Below, piece by piece: positions 1 to 24,868 of a DNA stretch of 64,000 nucleotides. The position numbers and the translations under genes were made by a program. The notes beneath the pieces are model-generated. The model saw nothing but the letters and a program-made list of their open reading frames with translations, made no database searches and was not told where the DNA came from. The stretch's first letter is position 1. Each line of letters opens with the position of its first letter. The DNA comes from Acidobacteriota bacterium (GTDB lineage Bacteria; Acidobacteriota; Terriglobia; Terriglobales; Acidobacteriaceae), in NCBI GenBank assembly GCA_013289795.1, contig JABCZH010000004.1, positions 62,001-126,000 of the forward strand, read 5' to 3'.

Positions 1-35
1 GGTCCCCCGACCAGGAATTGCGTTCAGGAGTTATG

Positions 36-434
36 ATGTCTTTACCGGGTTCCACCGGCTATGCATTTAATCGGACGCGGCAGGCGTATCTGGCCACTCG
101 TGTCACGCTCGCTGCAACCCATTGGTCGCGCTTCCGTGGCTTGATGTGCACTGCGGCAGCGGAGTTTAGTCCCGGGGATGGCTTGTGGATCGTGCCCTGC
201 CGCGGAGTCCATAGCTTCGCCATGAAGTTTCCCATTGATGTGATCTACCTCGACGCCCGCAAGTGCGTGGTTCACATCGAGGAGAATCTGCGGCCCTGGC
301 GCGTAGCCAAAGTAAGTCTGCGGGCAGCTTCAGTACTGGAATTACCCGCAGACACACTGCGTTCCAGTCGAACCGCAGTCGGAGATGAAATCGATATCGC
401 GATGGGCCAGGCACGGGGAGCAAGCACAGCGTGA
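36..434 (+). CDS. DUF192 family protein
   Basis: A protein of about 132 residues matching the DUF192 family, small beta-rich proteins of unknown biochemical role that are often exported. The RFRGLM segment near residue 35 corresponds to the family's R-G-L-M start motif, and SFAMKFPIDVIYLD corresponds to its M-W-M-K-N..DVIFLD core. An AGGAG box at 26-30 sits just before ATGs at 33 and 36, so I prefer one of these to a TTG at 18. The stop overlaps the GTG start of the next gene (GTGA at 431-434), so the two are translationally coupled. The family is clear; the function is not. Confidence 0.85.
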   Translation: MSLPGSTGYAFNRTRQAYLATRVTLAATHWSRFRGLMCTAAAEFSPGDGLWIVPCRGVHSFAMKFPIDVIYLDARKCVVHIEENLRPWRVAKVSLRAASVLELPADTLRSSRTAVGDEIDIAMGQARGASTA

Positions 435-2425
435 GCGTTGAACTCAAGAACGAGGAACTCAGGACCGACAAGGTCGAGAACGCGGACCTCAAGCTTCTGA
501 TCGAATGGTCGTCGCCATGGCGGGAGTTCGTCACCGCACTCGGGCCGGCCTTGGGCAAGTCTCCCAAGCGCCTGGCCGGCGAGGCCCGGACCGATTCTTT
601 CCCCTACCGCGGGATGCTGCTCTCCTGGATCGTCGAAGGACTCGTGCTGATTGCCGCAATCGTGCTGCCTGCGCGCCTCGCCAGTCTGCGCCCTTATCAG
701 CCGCCGAGCATGCCTAAGTACGACATCATTTATTTCTCCGGAGCCGAACTGCCGCAGACCGAAGACCGCGGGGGCGCCCGCGCCGGCCGATCCGGACGCG
801 CGGGAGGACACGAGGCTTACCACCCCACCCAGGTCATCCGCGTGGCCCGCGGCGATGTCGTGCGCGAAAAGATAGTGGACGCCCCCAAACTAAACTTGCC
901 GCAATCAAGCTCGGCGGTCGCCAACCTGATGGCGTACAAGCCAATTCCTGGCCCTGCTCCCGCCGAGGGTTTGAAGCCATCCCTGCGAGCGCCAAGACTG
1001 GATGAAACTCCAGTCGCCCCGGCGCCGCAAGTCGATCAGGACAAAATGCGGAAGGCGCCGGCGATGAATGCAACTGTCGTGCCGCCGCCTCCGAGTGCTG
1101 CGCAGCGCGACATCACTTCGCTCCGCATTCCGGGTTCGCAAACCATCAGCGTGGTTCCGCCACCGGTTTCTGCTCCCGAACGGGTCACCAATCTCAATCC
1201 GCGGCTCACGCTGCCGGCGCCCAGCGTAATCGCGCCACCTCCAACCCAAATTGCGCGTGACCTCAAGTCCACCGGCCCAGGATTCGGTTCCGGCGAGCTA
1301 CAAAAGCAAGTCGTGCCTCCGCCAGTACAGGTCGCAGGTGCCACCTCCGACCGCCGATCAGCCGGAGGACTGGGCACATCCAACGTAGTACCGCCTCCGG
1401 TACAGGTCGCAGGCGGTTCGCTTCATGCTCAGGGAGCCTCCGGTCTGGATGGAAGCTCGGCGGTCGTTCCTCCGCCGCCCACGGTGTCTGGGGCAGCCTC
1501 CGCCGGGGGGATGGGCCACGGCAACCGTGGTACTGGGCTAGGCGGGCCGCTCGATGGCGGTTCGGTCACTGTACCGCCCAGCAACACCGGCGGCAACACT
1601 GCCGGCAATGGAATTGTCATCTCCAGCCAGCCGGGATCGAAGGTCGGCGTCCCCGGCGGCGCTGGGGCCGGCTCCCTCGCGCTCTCGCCCGCCGGCGGCA
1701 ACAAGCTGGGCGTCGGGGAAGGTCAAGGCGGGCAAGGCATCGCCCGCGGTGAAGGCTCAGGCAGCGGCTTTTCTGGAGAAGGCCCCGGTGGAACCAAATC
1801 CGGCGAAGGCCCGGGCACTGACGCTGCCGCGCGCGGCGGTATTTCCGCCTACCCTGGCTCCGGCGGAGCCGGTACGGGAACCGTCGGCAAGCCTCCACTG
1901 CCGGGCGTTTCCGTGCATGGCGGAAATAACATCATCACCCTGCCCAGCTTTGGCGCGGACGGCGGTTCCGGCGCCGCCCCCGGACGGACCTCCGTCATGA
2001 AACCCAGCGAAGGCCCTGACATCACCATCGTCGGCACGTCGCGCTCCGGCGGCGCTTTTAATTACTACGGCACGCTCAAGGGCGACAAGGTGTACACCAT
2101 CTACCTGGACACTGCCCTGGGACCCGCAGTGCTCGAATATGCCGACCCCACATCGGCCACGCATCCTTACGGAGAAGACCTGACCGCTCCTCATCCCATG
2201 CGCACCGACCTCCCCGCAAACCTCAAGCGCTCGCGCCTCGTGATCTCGTGTGTTCTCGATCGCTCTGGACTGGTTCGCAATCCGCGAGTCCTCGAACCCG
2301 GCTCCCATGACCTGACCACCAAAGTCCTGGCCGCCCTGCCCGCCTGGAAGTTCCGCCCCGCCTTTCGTGGAGAGCAACCCGTCGAAGTCAACGCCATCCT
2401 GGGTTTCGACATCGATACCCGCTAG
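431..2425 (+). CDS. TonB-like protein with Pro/Gly-rich periplasmic spacer
   Basis: A 664-residue protein with a cytoplasmic N-terminus, one membrane segment at about residues 61-83, a very long Pro/Gly/Val-rich region (about 150-520) containing repeated VVPPPVQVAG-type units, and a C-terminal TonB-like domain (about 590-664: LVISCVLDRSGLVRNPRVLEPG..LPAWKFRPA). This is the layout of an energy-transducing or envelope-spanning TonB protein acting between the inner and outer membrane. The spacer is much longer than in classical TonB, and no ExbB/ExbD gene is nearby. It starts with GTG overlapping the DUF192 stop codon. An alternative is a periplasmic structural protein that only borrows the TonB fold. 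Confidence 0.8.
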   Translation: MSVELKNEELRTDKVENADLKLLIEWSSPWREFVTALGPALGKSPKRLAGEARTDSFPYRGMLLSWIVEGLVLIAAIVLPARLASLRPYQPPSMPKYDIIYFSGAELPQTEDRGGARAGRSGRAGGHEAYHPTQVIRVARGDVVREKIVDAPKLNLPQSSSAVANLMAYKPIPGPAPAEGLKPSLRAPRLDETPVAPAPQVDQDKMRKAPAMNATVVPPPPSAAQRDITSLRIPGSQTISVVPPPVSAPERVTNLNPRLTLPAPSVIAPPPTQIARDLKSTGPGFGSGELQKQVVPPPVQVAGATSDRRSAGGLGTSNVVPPPVQVAGGSLHAQGASGLDGSSAVVPPPPTVSGAASAGGMGHGNRGTGLGGPLDGGSVTVPPSNTGGNTAGNGIVISSQPGSKVGVPGGAGAGSLALSPAGGNKLGVGEGQGGQGIARGEGSGSGFSGEGPGGTKSGEGPGTDAAARGGISAYPGSGGAGTGTVGKPPLPGVSVHGGNNIITLPSFGADGGSGAAPGRTSVMKPSEGPDITIVGTSRSGGAFNYYGTLKGDKVYTIYLDTALGPAVLEYADPTSATHPYGEDLTAPHPMRTDLPANLKRSRLVISCVLDRSGLVRNPRVLEPGSHDLTTKVLAALPAWKFRPAFRGEQPVEVNAILGFDIDTR

Positions 2426-2437
2426 ACGGCGGTTGCC

Positions 2438-2515
2438 CTACATCACTGCGCTGGCGTATGAATTGATCTCGCAGTTCGGGCTGATCTCTTCAAATTGTGG
2501 TGTGGTCCATTCCAT
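2438..2515 (-). CDS. pqqA: PqqA-like peptide (coenzyme PQQ precursor), 25 aa
   Basis: A 25-codon gene begins at ATG 2515, behind an AGGAGG box at 2526-2521 with 5-nt spacing, and ends at TAG 2438. The peptide begins MEWTTPQFEEIS and ends CEINSYASAVM. It has Trp3, Pro6, Glu10-Ile11, Glu16 and Tyr20, and so carries the Glu-x3-Tyr pair at the spacing of PqqA, in which the radical SAM enzyme PqqE cross-links those two residues to build pyrroloquinoline quinone. As I recall it, the Methylobacterium PqqA aligns without gaps. It lies 21 nt after the stop of a PQQ-type propeller gene on the same strand. No pqqB-F genes are in the window, so it would have to be processed by enzymes encoded elsewhere. 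The motif and ribosome site are seen; the function is inferred. Confidence 0.82.
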   Translation of the reverse strand: MEWTTPQFEEISPNCEINSYASAVM

Positions 2516-2536
2516 GGTTGCCTCCTGAGTTAGCGT

Positions 2537-4530
2537 TTAACTGCAACTTCTCGCGGTGCTGAAGTGCCCAAAGATGTAGAAGCTACCGGCTCGCCAACAG
2601 CTGGCGGTAGGGTTAGGAACCCCTGCTATCTGACAGCTCGGGCTTGAAGGATCTTGGATCGGCCCCTGTGTTCCCACGTAAACGTAACCATTGGCGACTG
2701 TCGGAATGGAATACTTGGTCGCCGGGTTAATTTGGTCCACCGCAGTCAAGCTCACAATACAGTCGTCGCTGTTGTAGAGCTTCTTCATATTCGTGTCGGT
2801 GGAACTGGCTGCATCAAAAGCTTCAAGCGCACCGTGTGTGGCGGCATGGAAGGTCTTGGTGTTCCACGTAAATGTAGTGTTGCTTGGCACGACGGTGCCG
2901 TCCGCCCAGATCGCCCAGACAATTGCATCGTACGGATTGGAGGATGTTGTGGCCGAGATCGACGGCGTCGTGCCCCAGGGGAATAGGCGGGGAGAAGTTG
3001 CCACGGTCTCGTACGCCACGGCCCTAGTTTGGTTACACGGAGAGGTTGAGCTAATCGGGTTCCCGGTGCCGCAAATCTGGTATCTCATCAGTTCGCCCCC
3101 GCCAGGATTGCCGTCATTTGCTGGGCTAACGAAAAGGTAGTTCGTCGTAGAGCTTTCCCAGAAGGCAGGGTTGGTATGAATCAGCGGCCCGCCAGGAAAT
3201 GAACTGCTAATCTGGAATGTCTGCACGTTGTTCGTGCCGATCGCGCTGGTGCAGTTGGACACATGCCTGTATAACCTCCGGGGCTGGTCCAGTCCATAAA
3301 CCAGAGGCCGCCCTCCTTGTCCCCGCTGACAGCTAAATGTTGCCAGGTGCTATTCTCGCCATCGGGGATGAGCATGGGACTGCCGGAACCGAAGTCCACG
3401 TCGCCGCTGCACCCCGGATCCATACTTGAACGGTAGTACTGATCACCGGGAGTATAGGAATTAGCAGCAATCGACAATGCGCCAGTGTTTGCGCTAGACA
3501 TTTTAACGAAAGTGTCTCCCGCGTCAGTGCCGCCCGTGGTGTTCAGGTTGAAAAACCCATTTCCTGTGTTGAAAAAGATGTGATAGCTACTGCTCGGGTC
3601 CTGCGCATAGACCGGCCCTCCCCCGCCTCCCCAAATGCCGCCACCATCCTTACCTGTCGAATTCTCGGACATGGATAGGCAGAGCGGTGGGGTGCTCAGG
3701 GACGCGGTGTCGTACGCGAATATCAGCCCGTTCGGGTAGGGGTTCTTGAGTCCGTCCATCATCGACAACGGTATATACAGGAATCCATCGCCTCCCAAAA
3801 GTAATGCGGGACGCTGAATATGCCTCTGCGAGAAGTTCATATCAGTCGGGCACGTGCCATTCGGGGTTATGGAGATTGACGTTACGCCTGTGAGAGACAG
3901 GCTCGTTATGTCGAGCGCCCACAGTCGATGGTAGTAATTGCTTCCTGAGAGCGCCTCTGTCACTAGATAGATCGTACCGCCTGTGCTGCCGTCTACAAGC
4001 GTAGTTGTATTGATGACCGGAGTGCCTAAAATCCCAACGCTTGGAGCAATGGTTTTGCAGCCCCCGCCGCCTACGTTGTCGCATGTAGGTGCAGTCTCTC
4101 CAGAGAGCAGCAGCGATACCGGTGTACCGCTCAACAGGGTGCACGCGCCAGGAGCACCACTGGGAGCTGACGGTGTTCCGTCAAAGGCGTACAGGCTGCC
4201 ATTCATCGTGGCGACATAGACCACAGCCCGCCCCTGACCAACGCCGCCCCACTTAACGTTAGTAACCACGAGTGGTTGACCATAAACTTGGCCATCCAAA
4301 CTGGTGTAGTTGCAGAACTGGCCAAACGTGCCTGTTGTGATGTTGCCACGCGTAACCATGCTCTCCTGCAAGTTCTGCCCCGTGCGATATACGCAGCCGG
4401 TGCAGATTGCAGGAATGTCCTGATGTCCAGTAGTTACGTTAGTCGTTTGAGCAAATTGTTGAGGTGCGGCTCCCAGCACGAAAATCAGTAGCAGCAAACC
4501 TGAGAACGTAGTGGCGCTTCGTCTCCCCAT
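2537..4530 (-). pseudogene. Frameshifted secreted PQQ-like beta-propeller protein
   Basis: Two consecutive minus-strand frames together encode one protein of about 660 residues. Frame A runs from ATG 4530, with a signal peptide ending near AAPQQFAQ, to about 3255. Frame B runs from there to TAA 2537. Propeller-type motifs continue across the junction (VVYVATMNGSLYAFDG and GGLWFMDWTSPGG in A; YVYVGTQGP in B). Frame A degenerates after PGGYTGM into CPTAPARSARTTC, while frame B reads SNCTSAIGTNNVQTF from the same bases. Removing 2 bases or adding 1 at the ATGTGTCC stretch (about 3255-3264) restores one frame. The protein looks like an exported PQQ-type propeller of unknown substrate. It may be a true pseudogene, a sequencing error, or a phase-variable TG tract. 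Confidence 0.75.
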
Positions 4531-4579
4531 AGTTTCTCCTTTTCGACCTCTCTTCTCTGGATCGTCTCCTCAAGTCCAT

Positions 4580-5596
4580 CTAGAACTTGTGTAGACGATT
4601 GGTGTTTGTCTCCGCCGTCCAAACGTAGACGCCGTCAAAGGCGACGCCTGCCGAATTAAGCCGTCGCGACGCAACCTGGGCACCATCGCTCGCCCGCAGA
4701 ATCACCAGGTTGGAATCGCCCGAGATCCAAATGTAGGTGCCATCGAACGCAACCCCGTACGGCCCATTCGCGGGGACCGGGAAGGTACCGAGTACCACCC
4801 CATCGCTAGCCCGCAGTTCGGTCATGGTGTTACTGTTCCGGTTGGCTACCCAAATATTTGCACCGTCAAAAGCGATCCCCAATGGGTTAGTCCCGACACC
4901 GAATGTGCCTAGGACCGCGCCATCCAAGGCCCGCAGCTTGGTCACACTGCTAGATCCGTCGTTTGTCACCCACACGTTTACCCCATCAAATGCAATAGCA
5001 GTTGGAGAGCTGCCCACAGCGAAAGTGCCCAAGATCTGGCCGTCAGTGGTCCGCATTTTGCTAACCGTATTGTCCCGAGCGTTCGGCACCCACAAGTTCT
5101 GTCCGTCGAACGCCGTCCATGCGGGAAACATCCCGGTGCGAAATGTGCCTAAAGTCTTGCCATCGCTCGCTCGAAGTTTTGTGACAGTGTTGTCGATTTC
5201 GTTAGACGCCCAGATGTTGGCTCCATCGAAGGTGACCCCAAACGGCTGACTGCCTACGTCGAACGTGCCAAGAAGCTGCCCATCGCTGGCCCTGATCTTG
5301 GTTACATTGTTTCCCGCGAAGTTCGCTGTCCAAATGTTGGTGCCGTCGAAGCATAGGCCGTAGGGCTGGTTGCCCACAGGGAACACAGTCGAAGTGTCGG
5401 CTAGGTACCAATGCAGCAGCGCAATCTTGAGCGGGTTCAGACGCGCTCCCGCATCCAACTTGGGAGGCTGGATCTGCGATTCCTGCTGGGCCTGCGATGG
5501 TCGGATGACAGCTTGCTGCGCATGGCCCACGAACAAGTTCGCCATCGCCAGAATTACGACAATCACAGACGCGCAAGCCGCTATGAGGATTTTCAT
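4580..5596 (-). CDS. Secreted YVTN-type beta-propeller repeat protein
   Basis: A 338-residue protein with an N-terminal signal/membrane segment (about 1-27) followed by six to seven near-identical repeats of about 40 residues. The repeats follow the pattern TF.VG..P.G.AFDG.NIWV.N...N.VTKLRASDG..LG, predicting one seven-bladed propeller facing the periplasm or cell surface. The last blade ends NTNRLHKF. Such YVTN/NHL propellers usually serve in protein-protein interaction or adhesion; no catalytic residues can be assigned. A possible sigma-70 promoter lies about 125 bp upstream. The high repeat identity suggests recent duplication or gene conversion between blades. Confidence 0.85.
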   Translation of the reverse strand: MKILIAACASVIVVILAMANLFVGHAQQAVIRPSQAQQESQIQPPKLDAGARLNPLKIALLHWYLADTSTVFPVGNQPYGLCFDGTNIWTANFAGNNVTKIRASDGQLLGTFDVGSQPFGVTFDGANIWASNEIDNTVTKLRASDGKTLGTFRTGMFPAWTAFDGQNLWVPNARDNTVSKMRTTDGQILGTFAVGSSPTAIAFDGVNVWVTNDGSSSVTKLRALDGAVLGTFGVGTNPLGIAFDGANIWVANRNSNTMTELRASDGVVLGTFPVPANGPYGVAFDGTYIWISGDSNLVILRASDGAQVASRRLNSAGVAFDGVYVWTAETNTNRLHKF

Positions 5597-5723
5597 AATC
5601 TTCTACTCCCCCGGGGCGTGATGCAGTGAAACCTACAGTGACTTTGTTGCTATGAAATGAGACGATACTGCGGAGACCCACGTGCCACCCTGGCCCATGG
5701 CACCCGGACTACCGGGCAATTGC

Positions 5724-5753
5724 ACTGTACTTCCCTTCCCCAGGGAAGGTCAA
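5724..5753 (-). promoter_or_regulatory. Possible sigma-70 promoter for the YVTN propeller gene
   Basis: On the minus strand TTGACC (5753-5748) is followed after 18 bp by TACAGT (5729-5724). This predicts a transcript start near 5716 and a leader of about 120 nt before ATG 5596. The spacer holds the palindrome-like CTTCCCTTCCCCAGGGAAG, which could be an operator. The rest of the 5597-5855 gap shows no gene. Confidence 0.4.
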
Positions 5754-5855
5754 GTAACTTTTCAATAAAACGAAATAATCGAGCCAGTCGGGCTGAGTCA
5801 CAGCCGCCGCGAGTCTCGCTCGCCACGCAATTCACTCATAAGTAAGTGACACTAA

Positions 5856-7439
5856 CTACTTACGCCGAAACAACACTGCCGTCTTATCCTCGTAAACCGA
5901 TTCCCACCCGGCCTTTAGCCTGAGTATGTTCGCCAGCGGCGAGTCCGTCGGCATCAGCACCCAGTCCACGTGCAGCTTGTCCAAAACCTCATCCCATCCC
6001 AGTTGGACCAATACTGCCTTCAAATAATCCTTAAGGAATGCGTCGCCATACAAATCATGACGATCGTCGGCCACAACCTGCGTCTCAGGGTACAGTCGAT
6101 AAATCAAGTACCCGCCCCAATAGTCCAAACTAAGAATCGGGCCATGAATCCCCCGCCCTGCAATTACTTCCGCAGCTTCCACCGGAAATCTCTTGTCATC
6201 GAAATAGGAGTTGATGAACTGAGTCGAGCCAATCCGTCCCTGATGCGCGCACGCCCACAAGCAGAGAACGAACACCAGCACCAGCCAGAGATGGCCATAA
6301 AGACTCTTCTCGAGCGTCTCCATGCGCCCACCAAAAGAGCGCGTCCACGAAGCCAGCCTACTCAGCCAAGCCGCCGCGTCGCCGTTTTCTCTCAGTCCCG
6401 CTACGCTCTCCGATATCACCGGAGCGATGATCAACGTGATCAGGAGTGCTGATGTCGGCAGACTGCGCGTGGCATAGAATCCGCTGTAAACTGCAACCAG
6501 CAAAACCAGCACATGGGTTGTGCTCAGCCTCTTCCGCGCACTCGCCACAGTTACAATCGTGATCAGCACCAGCACCGCGAAGCACTGCTGAGCCGCCCCG
6601 TGAAAGTCGGGCGAGAGAAACTCACTGATGCGGTCCATCAAGAAACGGTCCGTCAGATAACGGTAAACGTGGAGGTGCAACTGATATGTATAAGGATTAA
6701 TGAAGCTAGCCGCCGTCACGAGCGCACTTACGCCACTTAGCCGCTTTAGCCAAGTTGCGGTTTCGTCCCGCCGCTCTCGGCTTGCCCAGTAGTCAATCAC
6801 GCCACCGGCGACATAGACCACCAGCAGAACAAAGCCAAGCACAAATCCGCCATGTACATTCACCCACAGCAGCATCACTATCGGCAGCCAGAGCAGGCGT
6901 TTCTTTTGCTCCGAAGCCGGTGCACCCGCCGCAGAATCTAGTAACTCGAACCAAACGACGGTCAGGAGCCAGCTCAACAAGTGCGGCCGAGCAAGAAAAT
7001 GCACCGCCGAGGACCCCAGCGTCAGGATCAAAAGGAATAACGTGATCAGCAAATTGCCGCCACGCCGTAATCCCAGATGAAGAGTCAAAACGAACGTCGC
7101 CGCGATGATCGCCGCTGAGTAGAAAACCACGCCGTTCAGCCCCATCGCGTGGTGGATGACGGCAAACACAATGTCGTAGAGCCATTCCCACGCGAACCAC
7201 GGCTTCCCATTCATGGTCGAAGAAAACGAATCTGTGCGAGTGATGGCGTGGGTCAGCAGCATTTGCTGCCCATTGCGAATGTGCCATCCGATGGTGGCAT
7301 CGCGCAGCAGCAGCCGTCCCAGCGCGCCGCAACTCAGCCCGAACAGCAATGCGGCGAACAACAAATCCGCAACCGAGGGAATCAGAAAGCCGACCCACGC
7401 TCCACGGTCCGGTTTGGTTGGCGCAGCTTTCGAGGCCAA
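5856..7439 (-). CDS. Polytopic membrane protein, GT-C glycosyltransferase-like
   Basis: About 527 residues with some ten or more hydrophobic segments, a first extracytoplasmic loop holding the acidic TRTDSF motif, and a C-terminal soluble tail (YRLYPETQVVADDRHDLYGD .. AGWESVYEDKTAVLFRRK). This topology resembles GT-C or ArnT-like transferases that use polyprenyl-phosphate sugars, but I cannot name a substrate. The open frame extends upstream to 7625, across the start of the divergent NADH dehydrogenase gene. A TTG near 7439 gives a sensible N-terminus just before the first membrane segment; the start is uncertain and has no clear ribosome site. Confidence 0.65.
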   Translation of the reverse strand: MASKAAPTKPDRGAWVGFLIPSVADLLFAALLFGLSCGALGRLLLRDATIGWHIRNGQQMLLTHAITRTDSFSSTMNGKPWFAWEWLYDIVFAVIHHAMGLNGVVFYSAAIIAATFVLTLHLGLRRGGNLLITLFLLILTLGSSAVHFLARPHLLSWLLTVVWFELLDSAAGAPASEQKKRLLWLPIVMLLWVNVHGGFVLGFVLLVVYVAGGVIDYWASRERRDETATWLKRLSGVSALVTAASFINPYTYQLHLHVYRYLTDRFLMDRISEFLSPDFHGAAQQCFAVLVLITIVTVASARKRLSTTHVLVLLVAVYSGFYATRSLPTSALLITLIIAPVISESVAGLRENGDAAAWLSRLASWTRSFGGRMETLEKSLYGHLWLVLVFVLCLWACAHQGRIGSTQFINSYFDDKRFPVEAAEVIAGRGIHGPILSLDYWGGYLIYRLYPETQVVADDRHDLYGDAFLKDYLKAVLVQLGWDEVLDKLHVDWVLMPTDSPLANILRLKAGWESVYEDKTAVLFRRK

Positions 7440-7521
7440 AGTGTTTGCTCGCGTCTGACTAACGCTGAAAATGCTACTCTTTTGTTTCAGAATATTAACA
7501 GTCTCTGACCGGGTGCATGCA

Positions 7522-8811
7522 TTGGCTACCGACTCCAAACCTCGAATCGCCATCATCGGCGCCGGCTTCGGCGGCTTGCAGGCGGCGCTGCATTTGGCCC
7601 GTCTGCCGGTCCAGATCACACTCATTGACCGCCGGAATCACCACACTTTTCAGCCGCTGCTTTATCAAGTCGCGACCGCCGGGCTCTCTCCCGCCGAAAT
7701 CGCCGCCCCCATCCGCTGGATCGTGCGCGGCCACCCCAATATAGATGTTCTGCTGGGCGAGGTGCAGGATTTCGACCTCGCGCAACGCCGGGTGAAGCTG
7801 CCCGATCTTGAAATTCCTTATGACTATCTCATCGTGGCAGCCGGCGCCAGCCACGCTTATTTCGGGCACGACGAGTGGGAACCGTTCGCTCCCGGCCTGA
7901 AGACCATCGAGGATGCGCTCGAAATCCGCCGTCGCGTCCTGCTCGCGTTTGAACTGGACGAACGCCAGGCTGCCAGCGGAGGCCCGCAGCAACCGCTGAA
8001 TTTCGTAATCGTCGGCGGTGGGCCGACGGGGGTAGAGCTGGCAGGAACTTTGGCCGAGATTTCACGCCGCGTGCTGGCCAATGAATTCACGTCCATCGAT
8101 CCCAAGAGCACTCGCATCATCCTGCTCGAAGGCGGCCCGCGCATTCTGCTAACCTATCCCGCGGATCTCTCCCGCAGCGCCGAGGAACAGCTTCGCCATC
8201 TGGGAGTGGATGTGCGCACTTCCACCATGGTCACCGACGTCGAAGCCGGCGCGGTGCGCATGGGAGAATCCCGTCTTTCCGCCGCCGTGATTCTGTGGGC
8301 CGCCGGAGTCGCCGCATCTCCTTTGGGCAAGAAACTGGGAGCGCCGATCGACCGCGCTGGGCGAGTGCTGGTGAACCCTGACTTGAGCATCCCCAGCCAT
8401 CCCGAGGTCTTCGTCATCGGCGACCTGGCGTCACTCAAAGATGAAGGCGGAAAGATAATTCCCGGCGTCGCACCCGTTGCCATGCAAGAGGGTCGCGCCG
8501 TCGCCGGCAACATCAAGCGCGAACTGCACGGCGAACCCCGCCGCAATTTTCATTACGTCAACAAGGGCAATCTTGCGACTATCGGCCGCGCCGCCGCCGT
8601 CGCGGAATTCGGCAAAGTCCACATCTCAGGCTTCCTCGCCTGGTTATCCTGGCTGTTCATTCACATTTTCTTCCTGATCGGGTTTCGTAACCGCATCATC
8701 GTGCTGATCCAATGGGCCTGGTCCTACTTAACCTACGAACGCGGCGCCCGCCTGATCACCGGAGATCAGACCCTCCCCGGCTGGACCGTGTCAAAGAACA
8801 AAGAACCTTAG
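7522..8811 (+). CDS. ndh: Type II NADH dehydrogenase (NDH-2)
   Basis: A single-subunit, non-proton-pumping flavoenzyme that passes electrons from NADH to quinone at the cytoplasmic face of the membrane. Seen are the N-terminal FAD-binding motif IAIIGAGFGGLQAA, HHTFQPLLYQVAT, the second dinucleotide-binding motif FVIVGGGPTGVELAG, and VFVIGDLASL before the C-terminal FAD contact. The C-terminus has a hydrophobic helix (FLAWLSWLFIHIFFLIGF) typical of the membrane-anchoring end of this family. TTG 7522 gives the usual short N-terminus; ATG 7471 and GTG 7513 are in-frame alternatives. It is divergent from the membrane protein gene and converges on the VWFA gene 26 bp away. Confidence 0.9.
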   Translation: MATDSKPRIAIIGAGFGGLQAALHLARLPVQITLIDRRNHHTFQPLLYQVATAGLSPAEIAAPIRWIVRGHPNIDVLLGEVQDFDLAQRRVKLPDLEIPYDYLIVAAGASHAYFGHDEWEPFAPGLKTIEDALEIRRRVLLAFELDERQAASGGPQQPLNFVIVGGGPTGVELAGTLAEISRRVLANEFTSIDPKSTRIILLEGGPRILLTYPADLSRSAEEQLRHLGVDVRTSTMVTDVEAGAVRMGESRLSAAVILWAAGVAASPLGKKLGAPIDRAGRVLVNPDLSIPSHPEVFVIGDLASLKDEGGKIIPGVAPVAMQEGRAVAGNIKRELHGEPRRNFHYVNKGNLATIGRAAAVAEFGKVHISGFLAWLSWLFIHIFFLIGFRNRIIVLIQWAWSYLTYERGARLITGDQTLPGWTVSKNKEP

Positions 8812-21000: not shown

Positions 21001-21596
21001 AGCAAACTCGCTCCGAACAATAGGTCCGTCACCAGCCCAAAGCCTGGCGGCAGATAGTCGCTCACCGGAGCCCAGTCAAGATGGACCATCAACAGGCTGA
21101 CGGTCAACAGCCAGGGACCAATTTCCCAGCGCGCCCAGCGAAAGCGCACCAACTGAATTGCTGCTGCGAAGGTGATGATGCGGTAACCCACTTCCAGACC
21201 AACTCGCAGGACGAACGAATCCGGCCACCAAAAGGCTCGGGCCACGGCGTAGCTAATAAGAAGAACGGAAAATACCAGCAACGGAACTAACAGCTTGCGG
21301 GCGTGTGAGTAGATGAACACCGCGCAAGCGAACAGCGAAACCGCCAGGACAAACTGTGCTTGCGAACTCGCGACCAGCACATCCAGGTTGGCGCCGCTCA
21401 GCGCGCTATGTAACGTCCAGCCGGAAACGAAGTAGGCTAGCCAGCCCACAATCCAAATCAGCAAATAACGCTCACGAAACGTGCGAAATACCAAAAGGCT
21501 GGCCGCCAGGACGACCAGGGTGGCCGATTCCACCGTCATCATCTTGGGGACAGCCAACTCCAGGGCGGACCAGCCGCCATCTACGTAGCTGTTCAT
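18096..21596 (-). CDS. Hybrid sensor histidine kinase / response regulator
   Basis: About 1166 residues. In order: seven to eight membrane helices (about 20-215), a GAF domain (about 230-370), a PAS domain with a cysteine cluster (SGCPYCNRSGDG .. PDPCFGG), a second PAS with PAC (about 500-630), a second GAF (about 640-790), HisKA with the phospho-acceptor motif SGVAHELNNPLTAILGY, a HATPase domain (NIINNAVDAML, DSGPGI, GTGLGLSICYGI) and a C-terminal receiver (ILLVENEEAV, phospho-Asp in AVIMDGKMPG). It is a membrane sensor with an internal phosphorelay. ATG 21596 is preferred to a TTG 9 bases upstream. It is divergent from the HD-GYP regulator, its likely partner. Confidence 0.93.
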   Translation of the reverse strand: MNSYVDGGWSALELAVPKMMTVESATLVVLAASLLVFRTFRERYLLIWIVGWLAYFVSGWTLHSALSGANLDVLVASSQAQFVLAVSLFACAVFIYSHARKLLVPLLVFSVLLISYAVARAFWWPDSFVLRVGLEVGYRIITFAAAIQLVRFRWARWEIGPWLLTVSLLMVHLDWAPVSDYLPPGFGLVTDLLFGASLLMVVLDDSRLRTRRLGVVNALTNSISRAQQHGPMMATALEELKRLMHAKAAWFRLFEGDQMVIVQQIGLSKDFLRDRGVVPTDDKFERTLSGGAALVVRTSASDDYVRPFLKREGFDHCVLVPVLGKKSVIGVLTLGSRHRLSYTPDDLEFLATSAHQLGLAVENLRLVEQILRSHRQWANTFDSIQDLVLVHDSEFRIMKANQALLQHLAQAPADVAGQPCEAVLPHVSPWSGCPYCNRSGDGFHEIPDPCFGGFSMISTSTYTDQGSAQGSGQKGTIHVVRDTSDRRAAEEKYRLLFEQAQEGVFVATPGGKLLDCNDAFVRMLGYPTRDELMAVDVDTELYASPEQRDSFRREIDIHNFVRNFEVTLRRKDGALITALESSFATRDSKGKVDRYQGFLLDITEKKRAEDEVRRRNRELNALNAMAVIATQSFDLDEILNLTLRQVISLLGAETGSIYLADIDGPIFRRRAAWGQNSAERMRCAEVHLPEGFGDLVTRSRAEVITEEYLPHLPALAVDFIRGDGASSWIWVLLWSKDKPIGIMGISSRKNREYSSNDENLLVAIGRQLATTIEKVRLYEETSRAYEDLRKTQEQLLQSEKMSAVGQLISGVAHELNNPLTAILGYAQLLESEGLSERASEFVAKLFKQAQRTHRVVQNLLSFARQRKPQKQQVDLCKVLDETLSLRDYDLKTNNIKVEREIDCSVPGVTADPHQLEQVFLNIINNAVDAMLESGQGGNLRVSVYAKDGHLHAEFQDSGPGIKEPKRIFEPFYTTKSVGKGTGLGLSICYGIIQEHGGSISAHNREEGGAVIQVRLPSTSGTMAAENASPTPRRESAVEGRILLVENEEAVLEFERDVLSGAGAEVVACMGGDELRSLLNKQAFDAVIMDGKMPGNGSVLEVHRWIAENLPGLEKHLLVTFASAAEPEVREFLQNNQVPHLVKPFEVGDLIGHARRLLQKVNAAAAG

Positions 21597-21620
21597 CGCA
21601 ATCAAGGGCGTTTAGGTGCT

Positions 21621-21699
21621 CCATTTTTGATACCATGCCCGGCATCGTTCCCAATCGGGTTTCCGACACCTATTAGTTACTTTAGGAACCCAAAAATGG
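21621..21699. promoter_or_regulatory. 9-bp inverted repeat between divergent kinase and regulator genes
   Basis: CCATTTTTG (21621-21629) and CAAAAATGG (21691-21699) are exact inverted copies 61 bp apart, filling the 132-bp space between the two divergent starts. Each copy is preceded by TTTAGG. The position near both transcript starts suggests a shared operator, but no regulator is known. Confidence 0.4.
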
Positions 21700-21728
21700 G
21701 ACGCATTTCGAGTTAGACTAGGGTGGTC

Positions 21729-22823
21729 ATGCCCTCCGAGCGCATTCTGGTCGTCGACGACGAGGAAGCAATCCGCGAGATTGTCTGCTCCATGTTGACC
21801 GCCGCCCACTACCGGTGCGGACAGGCTTCCTCCGGCATGACCGCCCTGGCCTTGCTAGAGTCCGGGGAAACCTTTGATCTGATGCTCTCCGACCTGATGA
21901 TGGCCGATCTCGACGGCATCGGTCTGCTGGAACGCACCAAAGAAAAGTTCCCCGACATGCCGGTGGTGATGGTTACTGCCGTACACGACATTTCGGTCGC
22001 TTTGGCCGCCATTCGCAACGGCGCCTATGATTATTTGCTCAAGCCCTTCGAGCGCGAACAACTGTTGGCCACGGTACGCCGGGCACTCGAGAATCGCCGC
22101 CTGAAGCTTGAGAACCGCGCTTACCAGACCGGCCTAGAAGCCCAGGTTGCAGCTCGCACCCAGCAACTGCAGCAGACCATGTACGATCTCGAACGCTCCT
22201 ATGACATCACGCTCGAGGCCCTGGGTGATGCCCTCGACCTTAAGGACGCCGAGACCGAGGGTCACTCCAAGCGCGTCACTGCGTTCACCATTGCCATTGC
22301 CCGCGCCATGGAAGTACCCAAGGAACAAATCACGGTGATTGCCCGCGGGGCGTTTCTGCACGACATTGGCAAAATGGCAATTCCCGACGCCATCCTGCGC
22401 AAGCCGGGTGCCCTCACCCCGGACGAAATCACCATTATGCGTGAGCATTGCTACCGCGGCTATCAATTGCTCAAAAGGATCACCTTCCTGGCGGAGGCCT
22501 CGGAAATCGTCTACTCCCATCAGGAACGCTATGACGGCACCGGCTACCCTCGTGGACTGAAAGGTGAGGAGATCCCTATCGGTTCACGCATATTTTCCGT
22601 GGCGGACACGCTCGATGCCATCACCTCCGATCGCCCCTACCGCGCGGCCCAGACTGTGACCGCCGCGCGCGAGGAGATCGAACGCTGGTCCGGACGTCAG
22701 TTTGATCCCAAAGTCGTCAAGGTTTTTCTCTCTATGCCCCCGCACATCTGGAGCGATCTGCGCAAGGAAATCGACGCACAGATCTACCGCTTCGCCTATT
22801 CCACCGCCAAAAGCGGCAACTAG
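21729..22823 (+). CDS. Response regulator with HD-GYP domain (c-di-GMP phosphodiesterase)
   Basis: About 364 residues: a receiver domain (about 1-120; RILVVDDEEAIREIV, phospho-Asp in LMLSDLMMADLDG, K in YLLKPFE), a short coiled linker, and an HD-GYP domain (about 180-310) with HSKRVTAF, the metal pair HDIGKMAIPD, and HQERYDGTGYPRGLKG. HD-GYP enzymes hydrolyse cyclic di-GMP, so phosphorylation probably changes the second-messenger level. It is the likely output of the divergent hybrid kinase. ATG 21729 follows AGGGTGG; a GTG 6 bases upstream is possible. Confidence 0.93.
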   Translation: MPSERILVVDDEEAIREIVCSMLTAAHYRCGQASSGMTALALLESGETFDLMLSDLMMADLDGIGLLERTKEKFPDMPVVMVTAVHDISVALAAIRNGAYDYLLKPFEREQLLATVRRALENRRLKLENRAYQTGLEAQVAARTQQLQQTMYDLERSYDITLEALGDALDLKDAETEGHSKRVTAFTIAIARAMEVPKEQITVIARGAFLHDIGKMAIPDAILRKPGALTPDEITIMREHCYRGYQLLKRITFLAEASEIVYSHQERYDGTGYPRGLKGEEIPIGSRIFSVADTLDAITSDRPYRAAQTVTAAREEIERWSGRQFDPKVVKVFLSMPPHIWSDLRKEIDAQIYRFAYSTAKSGN

Positions 22824-22858
22824 CAGGTAGCCTGCAACTTCTCGTGTCTGTGGCGTTC

Positions 22859-22887
22859 TTGCTCTGCAAGGTTTCCCGGCGTATACA
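22859..22887 (+). promoter_or_regulatory. Possible sigma-70 promoter for the SIMPL gene
   Basis: TTGCTC (22859-22864), a 17-bp spacer, and TATACA (22882-22887), 28 bp before the ATG and just before a strong AGGAGG ribosome site. Confidence 0.45.
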
Positions 22888-22914
22888 CTTTCCCTAGCAC
22901 TCACAGGAGGCTTC

Positions 22915-23637
22915 ATGAAACTGCTCTCAGCGTTCTTCGCAGCTCTTCTGGCAACTACATCACTGGCTTTCGGACAGGATCGTCCCACAGTCACCGCACA
23001 ACCCAATACCGTGTACGTCTCCGCCGATGGAAAATTCGAGGCCAACCCGGATACTGCCGTCGTGCAATTCAATATTTCCGCGCAGAAGAACAAGTCGCGA
23101 GAGGCCTATGACCGTGCCTCGCAAGCCGTAGAACAAGTGCGGGAAATTCTACGCTCGAACGGAATCGACCCCAAGACCGCGGAAGTCGGTGCCTTGTCCA
23201 TACAGCCGCTTTTCCAATACTCCAATGGAAAATCGAAAATCGGCTCCTATCAAGTGAACACGGAAGTGAGGCTCAGGCTGAAGGATTTTACTAAGGTCGC
23301 CCCCATCGTTGAACAGTTTTCCGGCATGGACATAACCGGCAACCAGTCCGTCAGTTACACGCTCGAAGAAATTGACCTAGCCAAAACCAAAGCCGTCGAA
23401 GACGCGTATCGGCACGCCCGACTATCTGCCGCTGCCATCGCTCAGGCCGGGGGACGTACCTTGGGCGACTTATCCTACGCCTCAGTGGATACTGTAGAGA
23501 ACATAAGGCATACGCAACCGCTTCCCATGGTGGCCATGGCTCGGAGCCAACTCGCCGTCCCCGCTCCGACCGAAGAATTTACGCCACAGACCGCAACCGT
23601 CACCGCCCACGTGAACGCGGTATTTAATCTGAAATAG
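22915..23637 (+). CDS. SIMPL-domain (DUF541) secreted protein
   Basis: A 240-residue protein with a signal peptide (MKLLSAFFAALLATTSLAFGQ) and the SIMPL/DUF541 fold (YVSADGKFEANPDTAVVQFNI .. ALSIQPLFQYSNGKSKIGSYQVNTEV), like E. coli YggE. Members are periplasmic or outer-membrane oligomers linked to oxidative stress, without an established activity. CACAGGAGGCTTC before ATG 22915 gives an excellent ribosome site. It converges on the next gene with 8 bp between. Confidence 0.9.
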   Translation: MKLLSAFFAALLATTSLAFGQDRPTVTAQPNTVYVSADGKFEANPDTAVVQFNISAQKNKSREAYDRASQAVEQVREILRSNGIDPKTAEVGALSIQPLFQYSNGKSKIGSYQVNTEVRLRLKDFTKVAPIVEQFSGMDITGNQSVSYTLEEIDLAKTKAVEDAYRHARLSAAAIAQAGGRTLGDLSYASVDTVENIRHTQPLPMVAMARSQLAVPAPTEEFTPQTATVTAHVNAVFNLK

Positions 23638-23645
23638 GAGCGAAA

Positions 23646-24365
23646 TCACTGCGCCGACCCCGGCGCCCGCGTCACATTCGGCACCCGCGACGCATCCAGC
23701 GGAATATCCCGCTGCACCACCAATTCAATCGTCGTCCCAGCGTCCATCTTCACGTCATCGCCGCGCGTCAACATGGCAATGACAGTGCCGACAGCGCCGC
23801 CCACTCCTGCTCCAATCAGAGCACCCTTGCCTCCCTGACTGAGCCCCCCAACCAGTGCTCCGGTCCCAGCGCTTGTCGCGACGGTCCCGACCTTCGAGCC
23901 AGTCTGGCGATCTTTCTGAAGTGTTCCTTCCTGATCTTTCACTCCAGTCTTGTCCAATCCCGGCGCATTTTCCACCGCACCGGGGAGAACCACCGTATAT
24001 CCACTGGGATAAATCAAACTCGTGAAGTGCATCAACACCTGCGCCCGCCCTTTGATTCGCCCGCCGCGCTGGATCTCGCTGATTCGTCCCTGCACATAGG
24101 TCCCGGCGGGAATCAGCACTCGATTGTTCGCAACCACGGGAAACGTTGTCTCCGCATACACCGCATCGCCCGTCCGCGTGCCTTTCGTCGAGATGGCATG
24201 CTTGAGCGCCACCGGCACTTTGGTTCCTGCAGGAATCATCAACGTCTCGGGAGCCGGCGCAGGGGCGCTGGTGGCCGGATTCGAGACTGGATTCGCAGCG
24301 GTGCTGGTAACACTCTGCGCCCAGGCCATCCCCACGAGACAACACGTGACTAGGACAATTCGCAT
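23646..24365 (-). CDS. Secreted protein with VirB10/TrbI-like barrel and glycine zipper
   Basis: About 239 residues. A signal peptide (MRIVLVTCCLVGMAWAQS) is followed by a segment resembling the TrbI/VirB10 barrel (IPAGTKVPVALKHAISTKGTRTGDAVYAETTFPV .. IPAGTYVQGRISEIQRGGR). A glycine-zipper stretch follows (GALVGGLSQGGKGALIGAGVGGAVG), of a kind that inserts in or crosses membranes. GGGAGGTG before ATG 24365 decides the start; the frame upstream to 24608 lacks a good site. No secretion or conjugation genes are adjacent, so the VirB10 likeness is structural only. Confidence 0.75.
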   Translation of the reverse strand: MRIVLVTCCLVGMAWAQSVTSTAANPVSNPATSAPAPAPETLMIPAGTKVPVALKHAISTKGTRTGDAVYAETTFPVVANNRVLIPAGTYVQGRISEIQRGGRIKGRAQVLMHFTSLIYPSGYTVVLPGAVENAPGLDKTGVKDQEGTLQKDRQTGSKVGTVATSAGTGALVGGLSQGGKGALIGAGVGGAVGTVIAMLTRGDDVKMDAGTTIELVVQRDIPLDASRVPNVTRAPGSAQ

Positions 24366-24466
24366 GGAACACCTCCCGCCAGAAAACACAATCGCCACAG
24401 TATAGAACGCGACCGTCCCATACACGGATGCAAACAGTCCAGGAAGCGCTGTACGGTGGAGTTTGG

Positions 24467-24500
24467 GGCTGAGGGCTGAGGGCTGAAAGCTGAGAGCTAG
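24467..24500. repeat. Degenerate heptamer array, type GCTGAGG/GCTGAAA
   Basis: About five consecutive 7-bp units (GGCTGAG, GGCTGAG, GGCTGAA, AGCTGAG, AGCTAG..) run into the 3' end of the ferredoxin gene. They are of the same sequence type as the larger inverted array at 24881-24982. Confidence 0.7.
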
Positions 24501-24868
24501 ATCGGCATTACCCCGACTTCCAACTCCACGTCGGTGGTTTCGACCATCGCAATCGCATCCCAAGGGCAGCCGTCGAGGAAGCATCCGTCCGGCCCTTTGC
24601 TGACGCATTTCTTACAGCCGATGCAAAGAATAGGATCCACCTGAATGCGGCCAAACGGCGGATGGTCTTCATCCGGAACCCAGAACATGCAGTCTTCAAT
24701 GGGGCAATATTCCACGCAGGCAGGAGAACCGGCACAGCCAGTGCAGCATTCGGTAATGACCGCCAACTCCTTTGGTTTCTTCTTGCGAGGAGTGTCAATC
24801 CCCTTCGACCGGGGTTCGAACTTGAACTCATCGGGAACCATCCCCACAGCCTTGGTATCGGCAGCCAT
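24497..24868 (-). CDS. Ferredoxin with two 4Fe-4S cluster motifs
   Basis: A 123-residue soluble protein with two ferredoxin-like cysteine sets: CTGCAGSPACVEYCPIEDC (about residues 43-61) and CIGCKKCVSKGPDGCFLDGCPWDAI (about 82-106). These predict an electron carrier with two [4Fe-4S] clusters; the extra cysteine spacing in the second set differs from clostridial ferredoxins. The first 35 residues are charged and lack a signal peptide. Its redox partner is not evident. The start lies 12 bp from a large inverted heptamer repeat, and the terminal codons run into another heptamer array. Confidence 0.88.
   Translation of the reverse strand: MAADTKAVGMVPDEFKFEPRSKGIDTPRKKKPKELAVITECCTGCAGSPACVEYCPIEDCMFWVPDEDHPPFGRIQVDPILCIGCKKCVSKGPDGCFLDGCPWDAIAMVETTDVELEVGVMPI

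Follow-up and report, generated by a model that had tools for sequence, protein, structure and literature searches.

A 25-codon reading frame resembling pqqA, the gene for the precursor peptide of the cofactor PQQ, stands directly behind a propeller gene in the genome of an Acidobacteriaceae bacterium, which raises the question of whether it is a true precursor gene and what part it might play at such a place. The stretch of DNA that was analysed, hereafter the window, is 64,000 nucleotides long and belongs to contig C4 of this genome, which comprises 4.67 Mb in 33 contigs. On the minus strand, an NHL-like propeller gene, a large propeller gene and pqqA follow one another head to tail, and the cassette is bounded by a convergent gene that stops 12 nt short of pqqA.

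431..2425, plus strand: convergent gene, end of the cassette (ORF list)
2438..2515, minus strand: pqqA, solitary extra copy, 25 aa (TIGR02107 and PF08042 models)
2516..2536, minus strand: spacer of 21 nt with AGGAGG (sequence)
2537..3262, minus strand: large propeller, C-terminal part, second frame, 241 aa (54% identity over 243 aa to the homologue on contig C8)
3181..4530, minus strand: large propeller, N-terminal part, first frame, 449 aa (56% identity over 457 aa to the C8 homologue)
4580..5596, minus strand: first gene of the cassette, NHL/YncE-like propeller, 338 aa (TIGR03866 56.3 bits, below the cut-off of 287.3)

The window peptide as a PqqA

The window peptide, MEWTTPQFEEISPNCEINSYASAVM, starts with ATG, which is preceded by CTCAGGAGGCAACC with its AGGAGG ribosome-binding site. 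The original prediction described a 25-codon frame with AGGAGG, Trp3, Pro6, Glu16 and Tyr20, 21 nt behind a same-strand gene, and the sequence and the ORF list agree with it in all of these points, the preceding ORF ending at 2537. According to the available part of a previous study, PqqE joins Glu16 to Tyr20 in the numbering of Methylorubrum extorquens (PMC10906245); both residues, with three residues between them, are present in the window peptide and are predicted to be cross-linked in the same way.

Against TIGR02107, the peptide scored 23.3 bits (cut-off 20, E 4.2e-5), and against PF08042 its 21.1 bits equalled the gathering score of 21.1 (E 3.4e-4). When the whole genome was searched, TIGR02107 gave the window copy 19.9 bits and E 0.006, or 21.4 bits together with its frame neighbours, and PF08042 at E 0.001 listed four other copies and left the window copy out, so that the genome-wide support lent by these two models by themselves is modest. 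A profile of 21 acidobacterial PqqA sequences, of which the window copy is one row, found the window site with E 6.2e-17, and TIGR02107 gave zero matches over the cut-off in 14 control genomes, with three below it. Met1, Trp3, Pro6, Glu10, Cys15, Glu16, Ile17, Asn18, Ser19, Tyr20 and Ala23 are invariant in the alignment of these 21 sequences. As well, the invariant Cys15 stands immediately before the reactive Glu16 in all 21 acidobacterial peptides, the pqqB-linked ones included.

The pooled pN/pS of the seven copies in this genome was 0.12 (pS 0.456, pN 0.057; 21 pairs, which are not independent), and the pqqA copies are under purifying selection. A chance ORF, as might be suspected from the shortness of the peptide and from the E of 0.006 with TIGR02107 alone, is contradicted by seven near-identical copies, by this selection, by the strong ribosome-binding site and by relatives in 118 of the 398 family genomes matched with the 21-peptide profile, and we regard the idea as already refuted, with a negligible chance of being right. 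By these sequence comparisons, the minus strand at 2438-2515 encodes a genuine PqqA.

pqqA copies and PQQ pathway genes in the genome

Seven intact pqqA copies were identified with TIGR02107, all over the cut-off (the window copy only with its frame neighbours), plus one remnant. The window copy is not part of a pqqABCDE operon; instead, pqqB (361.7 bits, over the cut-off) directly follows the copy on C2, and pqqE (524.5 bits) and pqqC (334.3 bits), both over the cut-off, are on C3, where an ORF in the expected place of the pqqC/pqqE cluster was recognised, by position and look, as a pqqD candidate. The matches to pqqC and pqqE are thus on other contigs and none is in the window, just as the first reading of the sequence had it. 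That reading had offered, as separate possibilities, a true PQQ precursor with its maturation genes elsewhere and one of several orphan copies; the pathway genes on C2 and C3 and the seven intact copies show both to be right. It had also named a genome without pqqE and pqqD, and relatives without the peptide, as a ground for giving up the idea: pqqE is present and the peptide is conserved, and pqqD is recognised by position and look only.

The peptide resembles known PqqA (TIGR02107/PF08042) in its length, in Trp3, Pro6 and Glu16-x3-Tyr20, in passing the family models and in having pqqB, pqqC and pqqE in the same genome. It differs from the usual case in its acidobacterial-type Cys15 and in that six of the seven copies are away from pqqB-E and behind propeller-type genes. 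Only the C2 copy precedes pqqB, whereas the six others are solitary, each separated by 19-25 nt from a same-strand propeller-type gene upstream, which is of the large-propeller type in two cases (C4, C8) and BNR-type, of 481-522 aa, in four (C11, C12, C15, C17).

C4 (window), spacer 21 nt: NHL-like gene, large propeller, pqqA
C8, spacer 25 nt: NHL-like gene, large propeller of 688 aa, pqqA
C12, spacer 19 nt: large propeller of 627 aa, BNR-repeat protein of 481 aa, pqqA
C17, spacer 19 nt: large propeller of 621 aa, BNR-repeat protein of 485 aa, pqqA
C15, spacer 19 nt: large-propeller fragment, BNR-type protein, pqqA
C11, spacer 19 nt: two BNR-type proteins, pqqA; no large propeller on this contig
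C6:78771 (L074, about 7771): pqqA remnant, the eighth, behind an NHL-like gene

In the last of these, the layout is that of C4 and C8, with the large propeller shrunk to a short start-like stretch. The large-propeller profile gave 15 matches in the genome, or roughly a dozen genes, and seven large propellers (on C5, C7, C10, C18 and C25) have no pqqA directly behind them; the BNR-type family gave 17 matches, one of which runs off its contig, and pqqA stands behind 4 of the 17. The BNR-repeat family (L154-L170; C1, C2, C3, C5, C11, C12, C15, C17, C18 and C21) is expanded, partly in tandem, and 11 of its 17 matches end in GGIRLH. On C21, a BNR-type gene without pqqA behind it has a radical SAM match (21302-24732; TIGR02109 37.6 bits, far below the cut-off) about 1.6 kb away. 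Moreover, an integrase-like ORF, recognised by eye, is found on C17 (L021, 7288-8001) about 6.8 kb from the pqqA copy of that contig, and could bear on the spread of the cassettes.

The original prediction also considered a peptide with some other ribosomally made modification, that is, the precursor of a different product handled by a different modifying enzyme. Such a product might be suspected from the Cys15 beside Glu16 in 21 of 21 sequences and from the propeller-type genes that the copies adjoin. However, the copy that precedes pqqB shares the Cys and differs little in the rest of its sequence, only one of the genome's seven TIGR02109 matches passed the PqqE cut-off, and the intact solitary pqqA copies have none of the seven within 30 kb, so that we think this origin very improbable.

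Layout and possible decay of the window cassette

The NHL-like gene stands 49 nt upstream of the large propeller, and its 338-aa product is 70% identical to the C8 counterpart and has a start that looks secreted by eye. A propeller beside pqqA had been predicted as a single gene, and a propeller is indeed there, but its coding sequence is split between frames of 449 and 241 aa that overlap at 3181-3262, as against the single 688-aa ORF on C8. Its 449-aa part has a signal-peptide-like start, again by eye, and holds an Asp-x-Asp...Lys motif, DVDFGSG...K, with a spacing of 28. An Rfam search of positions 1-8000 of the window gave no match, and promoter and terminator scans found no more signals than in shuffled sequence.

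Because the propeller is in two frames and Pro13 of the peptide is unusual, the window cassette may be on its way out, in which case a frameshifted propeller and a PqqA with Pro13 would yield little or no usable product and the sibling cassettes would be the productive ones. Position 13 is Leu in the six other copies and in at least 90% of the 21 aligned sequences, the window copy has the lowest TIGR02107 score among the seven, and the remnant on C6 represents a more advanced stage. Against decay, the window peptide retains its start, its ribosome-binding site, Trp3, Pro6, Glu16 and Tyr20, and an error of sequencing or assembly could explain the break in frame; we consider it improbable that the cassette is failing.

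Distribution of solitary pqqA and its linkage to propellers

In the family, one pqqA match was found in 105 genomes, two in 11, four in G029 and eight, including the remnant, in the present genome, which also has the most in a search of the class (82 of 399 genomes with a match). Outside this genome, 139 loci were inspected (85 of the 131 family matches and 54 of the 56 other-family matches; totals counted by hand), and four of them, where the motif missed the peptide, were dropped to leave 135. In 90 of these, pqqA is followed by pqqB, pqqC, pqqD or pqqE within 400 nt; 43 are solitary, and two have pqq genes nearby that are otherwise placed.

For five of the 43 solitary pqqA, the gene upstream is of the large-propeller or BNR type, on the same strand and at most 300 nt away; of 1224 ORFs of at least 150 aa from the same loci, 4 are placed in this way (Fisher p 4e-6). 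The count used a propeller profile that includes four rows from the counted loci themselves (L086, L089, L099 and L108, the propellers of which were first recognised by BLAST to those of this genome) and a BNR profile built from 13 proteins of this genome. Where pqqA precedes other pqq genes, a propeller-type gene is upstream in 1 of 90 loci, and this is a weak match (37.9 bits). The five linked cases are as follows.

G029: spacer 169 nt; the neighbour is a distant family member (68.8 bits)
G117, same genus as G029: spacer 102 nt
G100: spacer 24 nt
G133: spacer 88 nt
G061: spacer 50 nt

The arrangement of a solitary pqqA right behind a large-propeller or BNR-type gene thus recurs in four further genera, and the remaining 38 of the 43 solitary pqqA elsewhere are without such a gene directly upstream. 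Genus g7 alone supplies 22 of the 43 (e.g., L079-L080, L104, L109-L110 and L114-L127), with no propeller directly upstream. The reverse order is seen as well, with large-propeller-type genes 257 nt (L077, G029) and 139 nt (L099, G374) downstream of a solitary pqqA. At L148 (G082), a PQQ-dehydrogenase-like ORF, recognised by eye, ends 93 nt before pqqA-pqqB, which is another possible linkage of user and precursor.

The copies could also have been amplified for dosage without any functional tie, pqqA being a passenger of expanding and recombining propeller genes, its copies doing no more than raising the supply of PqqA, and an ordinary alcohol dehydrogenase using the PQQ. The solitary copies are closer to each other than to the pqqB-linked copy (6-12 against 14-16 nt differences of 78), and this, together with the tandem growth of the BNR-type family, the C6 remnant and a propeller fragment, speaks for such an amplification. 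Scattered multi-copy pqqA is known, moreover, from methylotrophs, as far as the available text of two reports goes (PMC4109929; PMC9851590). On the other hand, two different gene types precede pqqA in this genome and the linkage recurs in four other genera, and the properties of the large propellers and the distribution of ordinary dehydrogenases, given below, tell against it as well; we hold a mere passenger role to be possible and rather doubtful.

Homology and predicted fold of the large propellers

A Pfam and NCBIfam scan of the C8 and C12 large propellers and the two window pieces gave no match over the cut-off (the C12 protein has a sub-threshold match to PQQ_2), and TIGR03075, searched against this genome at E 1e-5, matched no large propeller. 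When profiles were compared with hhalign, 19 propeller sequences aligned over 498 columns with 13 PQQ alcohol dehydrogenases from this genome and its relatives (probability 99.5%, E 3.7e-21), and an alignment of 20 propeller sequences gave 97.9% and E 3.4e-13 against PQQ alcohol dehydrogenases.

An AlphaFold2 model of the C12 propeller, made from 20 sequences, is eight-bladed (pLDDT 75.7, pTM 0.83). Its top four Foldseek matches were a membrane-bound quinone alcohol dehydrogenase and three quinohaemoprotein alcohol dehydrogenases, followed by BamB and XoxF. PQQ dehydrogenases also led the Foldseek list of an earlier C8 model, which was made from 12 sequences and, with a pLDDT of 57, is too weak to stand alone. 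In VIA-align, designed eight-bladed propellers and YxaL reached Z 27, BamB up to 26.1 and XoxF (6dam) 25.2 over 416 residues at 3.0 A. The fold is not decisive for PQQ use, because BamB and designed propellers have it too and reach equal or higher scores in this aligner.

From these alignments and models, the large propellers appear to be a divergent quinoprotein-like family with eight blades and full-length homology to PQQ alcohol dehydrogenases. They share with the PQQ alcohol and methanol dehydrogenases (TIGR03075; MxaF, XoxF, PedH) the eight-bladed propeller, the full-length profile homology and, as candidate active-site residues, an Asn, Asp-x-Asp and Lys/Arg in comparable places, and differ from them in having no TIGR03075 match, Lys for Arg and no conserved Glu ligand. 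Such an exchange has a precedent in membrane glucose dehydrogenase, where Lys replaces Arg. BamB and other PQQ-like propellers without PQQ have the same eight-bladed fold and align as well in structure; unlike them, the large propellers have a near-invariant Asp-x-Asp...Lys and are linked to and co-occur with pqqA.

Candidate active-site residues

Among 19 large propellers (C8 numbering), Asp395, Lys421 and Trp311 are present in 19 of 19 and Asp393 in 18 of 19. The Asp-to-Lys spacing is 28 in ten sequences and 27 in three, and 22, 25, 29 or 30 in the other six, and the column of the candidate Asn holds 15 Asn, 3 Asp and 1 Glu. Two divergent pqqA-adjoining propellers in G029 have the same motif with a spacing of 28. 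According to the available part of a previous study, the metal shell consists of Glu177, Asn261 and Asp303 in MxaF, with Arg331 in the second shell, and of Glu197, Asn285, Asp327 and Asp329 in XoxF, with Arg354 (PMC8028316). By comparison, the Asp-x-Asp...Lys spacing of the large propellers is, as read from their alignment, methanol-dehydrogenase-like.

In the profile alignment (C12 numbering), Asn329 pairs with the metal-ligand Asn and Lys409 with the conserved Arg, and the Asp-x-Asp is left in or beside an insertion; from its spacing and sequence context, we infer that it may be the equivalent of the catalytic Asp pair. By eye, the alignments of the large propellers show no conserved Glu at the place of the Glu metal ligand. 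The pattern of D-x-D, 24-26 residues and K is not specific, as it occurs in 25 of 36 profile hits (26 family members, including three partial repeats, and ten weak hits, eight of them dehydrogenases) and in 60 of 518 other ORFs. The invariant Trp of the family was considered as the PQQ-stacking Trp and dropped, since the profile alignment pairs it with a different dehydrogenase Trp. The retention of quinoprotein-like residues argues against a mere passenger role of pqqA beside these genes.

Co-occurrence with pqqA and possible PQQ users

A large propeller (E 1e-90) was found in 30 of 31 pqqA-positive and 35 of 79 pqqA-negative family genomes (Fisher p 7e-8), in a test that scored at most 12 candidates per genome, treated the 110 genomes as independent and is biased because the propeller profile was built solely from proteins of pqqA-positive genomes. 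Among the 65 of 110 genomes that bear large propellers, the mean copy number was 4.9 with pqqA and 2.3 without, with at most 12 candidates scored per genome, and genome size was alike (4.55 and 4.63 Mb). Ordinary PQQ dehydrogenases showed no clear difference in a set of 37 genomes (7 of 11 pqqA-positive against 10 of 26 pqqA-negative, p 0.28), in which the large propeller was present in 11 of 11 against 11 of 26 (p 0.0009).

In the present genome, TIGR03075 matched one C9 protein over the cut-off and, weakly, one on C20, and the ordinary PQQ alcohol dehydrogenase on C9, the kind of enzyme that a passenger role of pqqA would call for, could be a PQQ user. Nevertheless, four of the 11 pqqA-positive relatives, G029 among them, have no TIGR03075 match at E 1e-60, which speaks against the passenger role. 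G029 itself (L075-L078) holds four pqqA and 11 large propellers.

Comparison with known systems

According to the available parts of previous reports, Methylophilaceae have 3-12 pqqA copies (PMC4109929), a methanol-grown PQQ producer has five, three of them apart from operons (PMC9851590), and strain RH AL1 has three (PMC10848612); the pqqABCDE operon is usual and not obligatory, solitary pqqA being known (PMC9851590). Methylophilaceae and Methylovorus thus likewise combine many pqqA, some of them apart, with other pqq genes that are usually present in one set; they are methylotrophs, however, and in the portions at hand their extra copies are not tied to propeller operons (PMC4109929, PMC9851590). 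Acidobacterial xoxF3 regions include a YncE-type propeller, by the available text of PMC10875860. The accessible portions of PMC6688271 and PMC12124388 hold nothing bearing on a linkage of pqqA and propellers, and in the open-access literature, as far as its available text goes, multi-copy pqqA is already known, but no account of a tie between such copies and propeller genes or operons, in acidobacteria or elsewhere, came to light.

Proposed role of the solitary copies

We lean, by a modest degree of confidence, towards the window gene being a supplementary pqqA, which is matured in trans and co-expressed with an apo-quinoprotein. As the last cistron of a three-gene cassette of NHL-like propeller, large, presumably secreted propeller and pqqA, it would be translated from the propeller transcript; a promoter would not fit into the 21-nt spacer, so synthesis of the precursor should always accompany that of the propeller. 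PqqD would then bind the peptide and PqqE, whose gene is on another contig, would join Glu16 to Tyr20, after which PqqB and PqqC would complete PQQ. PqqA is a substrate that is consumed as PQQ is made. The new PQQ would fill the apo-propeller after its presumed export, the large propeller, as a divergent relative of PQQ alcohol dehydrogenases, being the probable consumer of the cofactor. The six solitary copies here, and the like arrangements in four other genera, may serve to match the supply of PQQ to the synthesis of apo-enzyme.

That the precursor gene stands beside its likely user, as was originally proposed, gains from the recurrence in other genera and from the quinoprotein-like character of the propeller; that the large propeller binds PQQ we infer from its sequence. 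More tentatively, and with less confidence than we place in the supplementary pqqA itself, Acidobacteriaceae might possess a large undescribed family of secreted PQQ-dependent quinoproteins, some operons of which carry their own precursor gene and so keep supply in step with the apo-enzyme. Such quinoproteins would perhaps be lanthanide-using, as the Asp-x-Asp suggests. If the proposal is true, a pqqA in the operon of a PQQ-needing enzyme would keep cofactor and apo-enzyme in balance by simple means, and it would provide a genomic handle for new PQQ users, in that a solitary pqqA beside an unannotated propeller would predict a quinoprotein.
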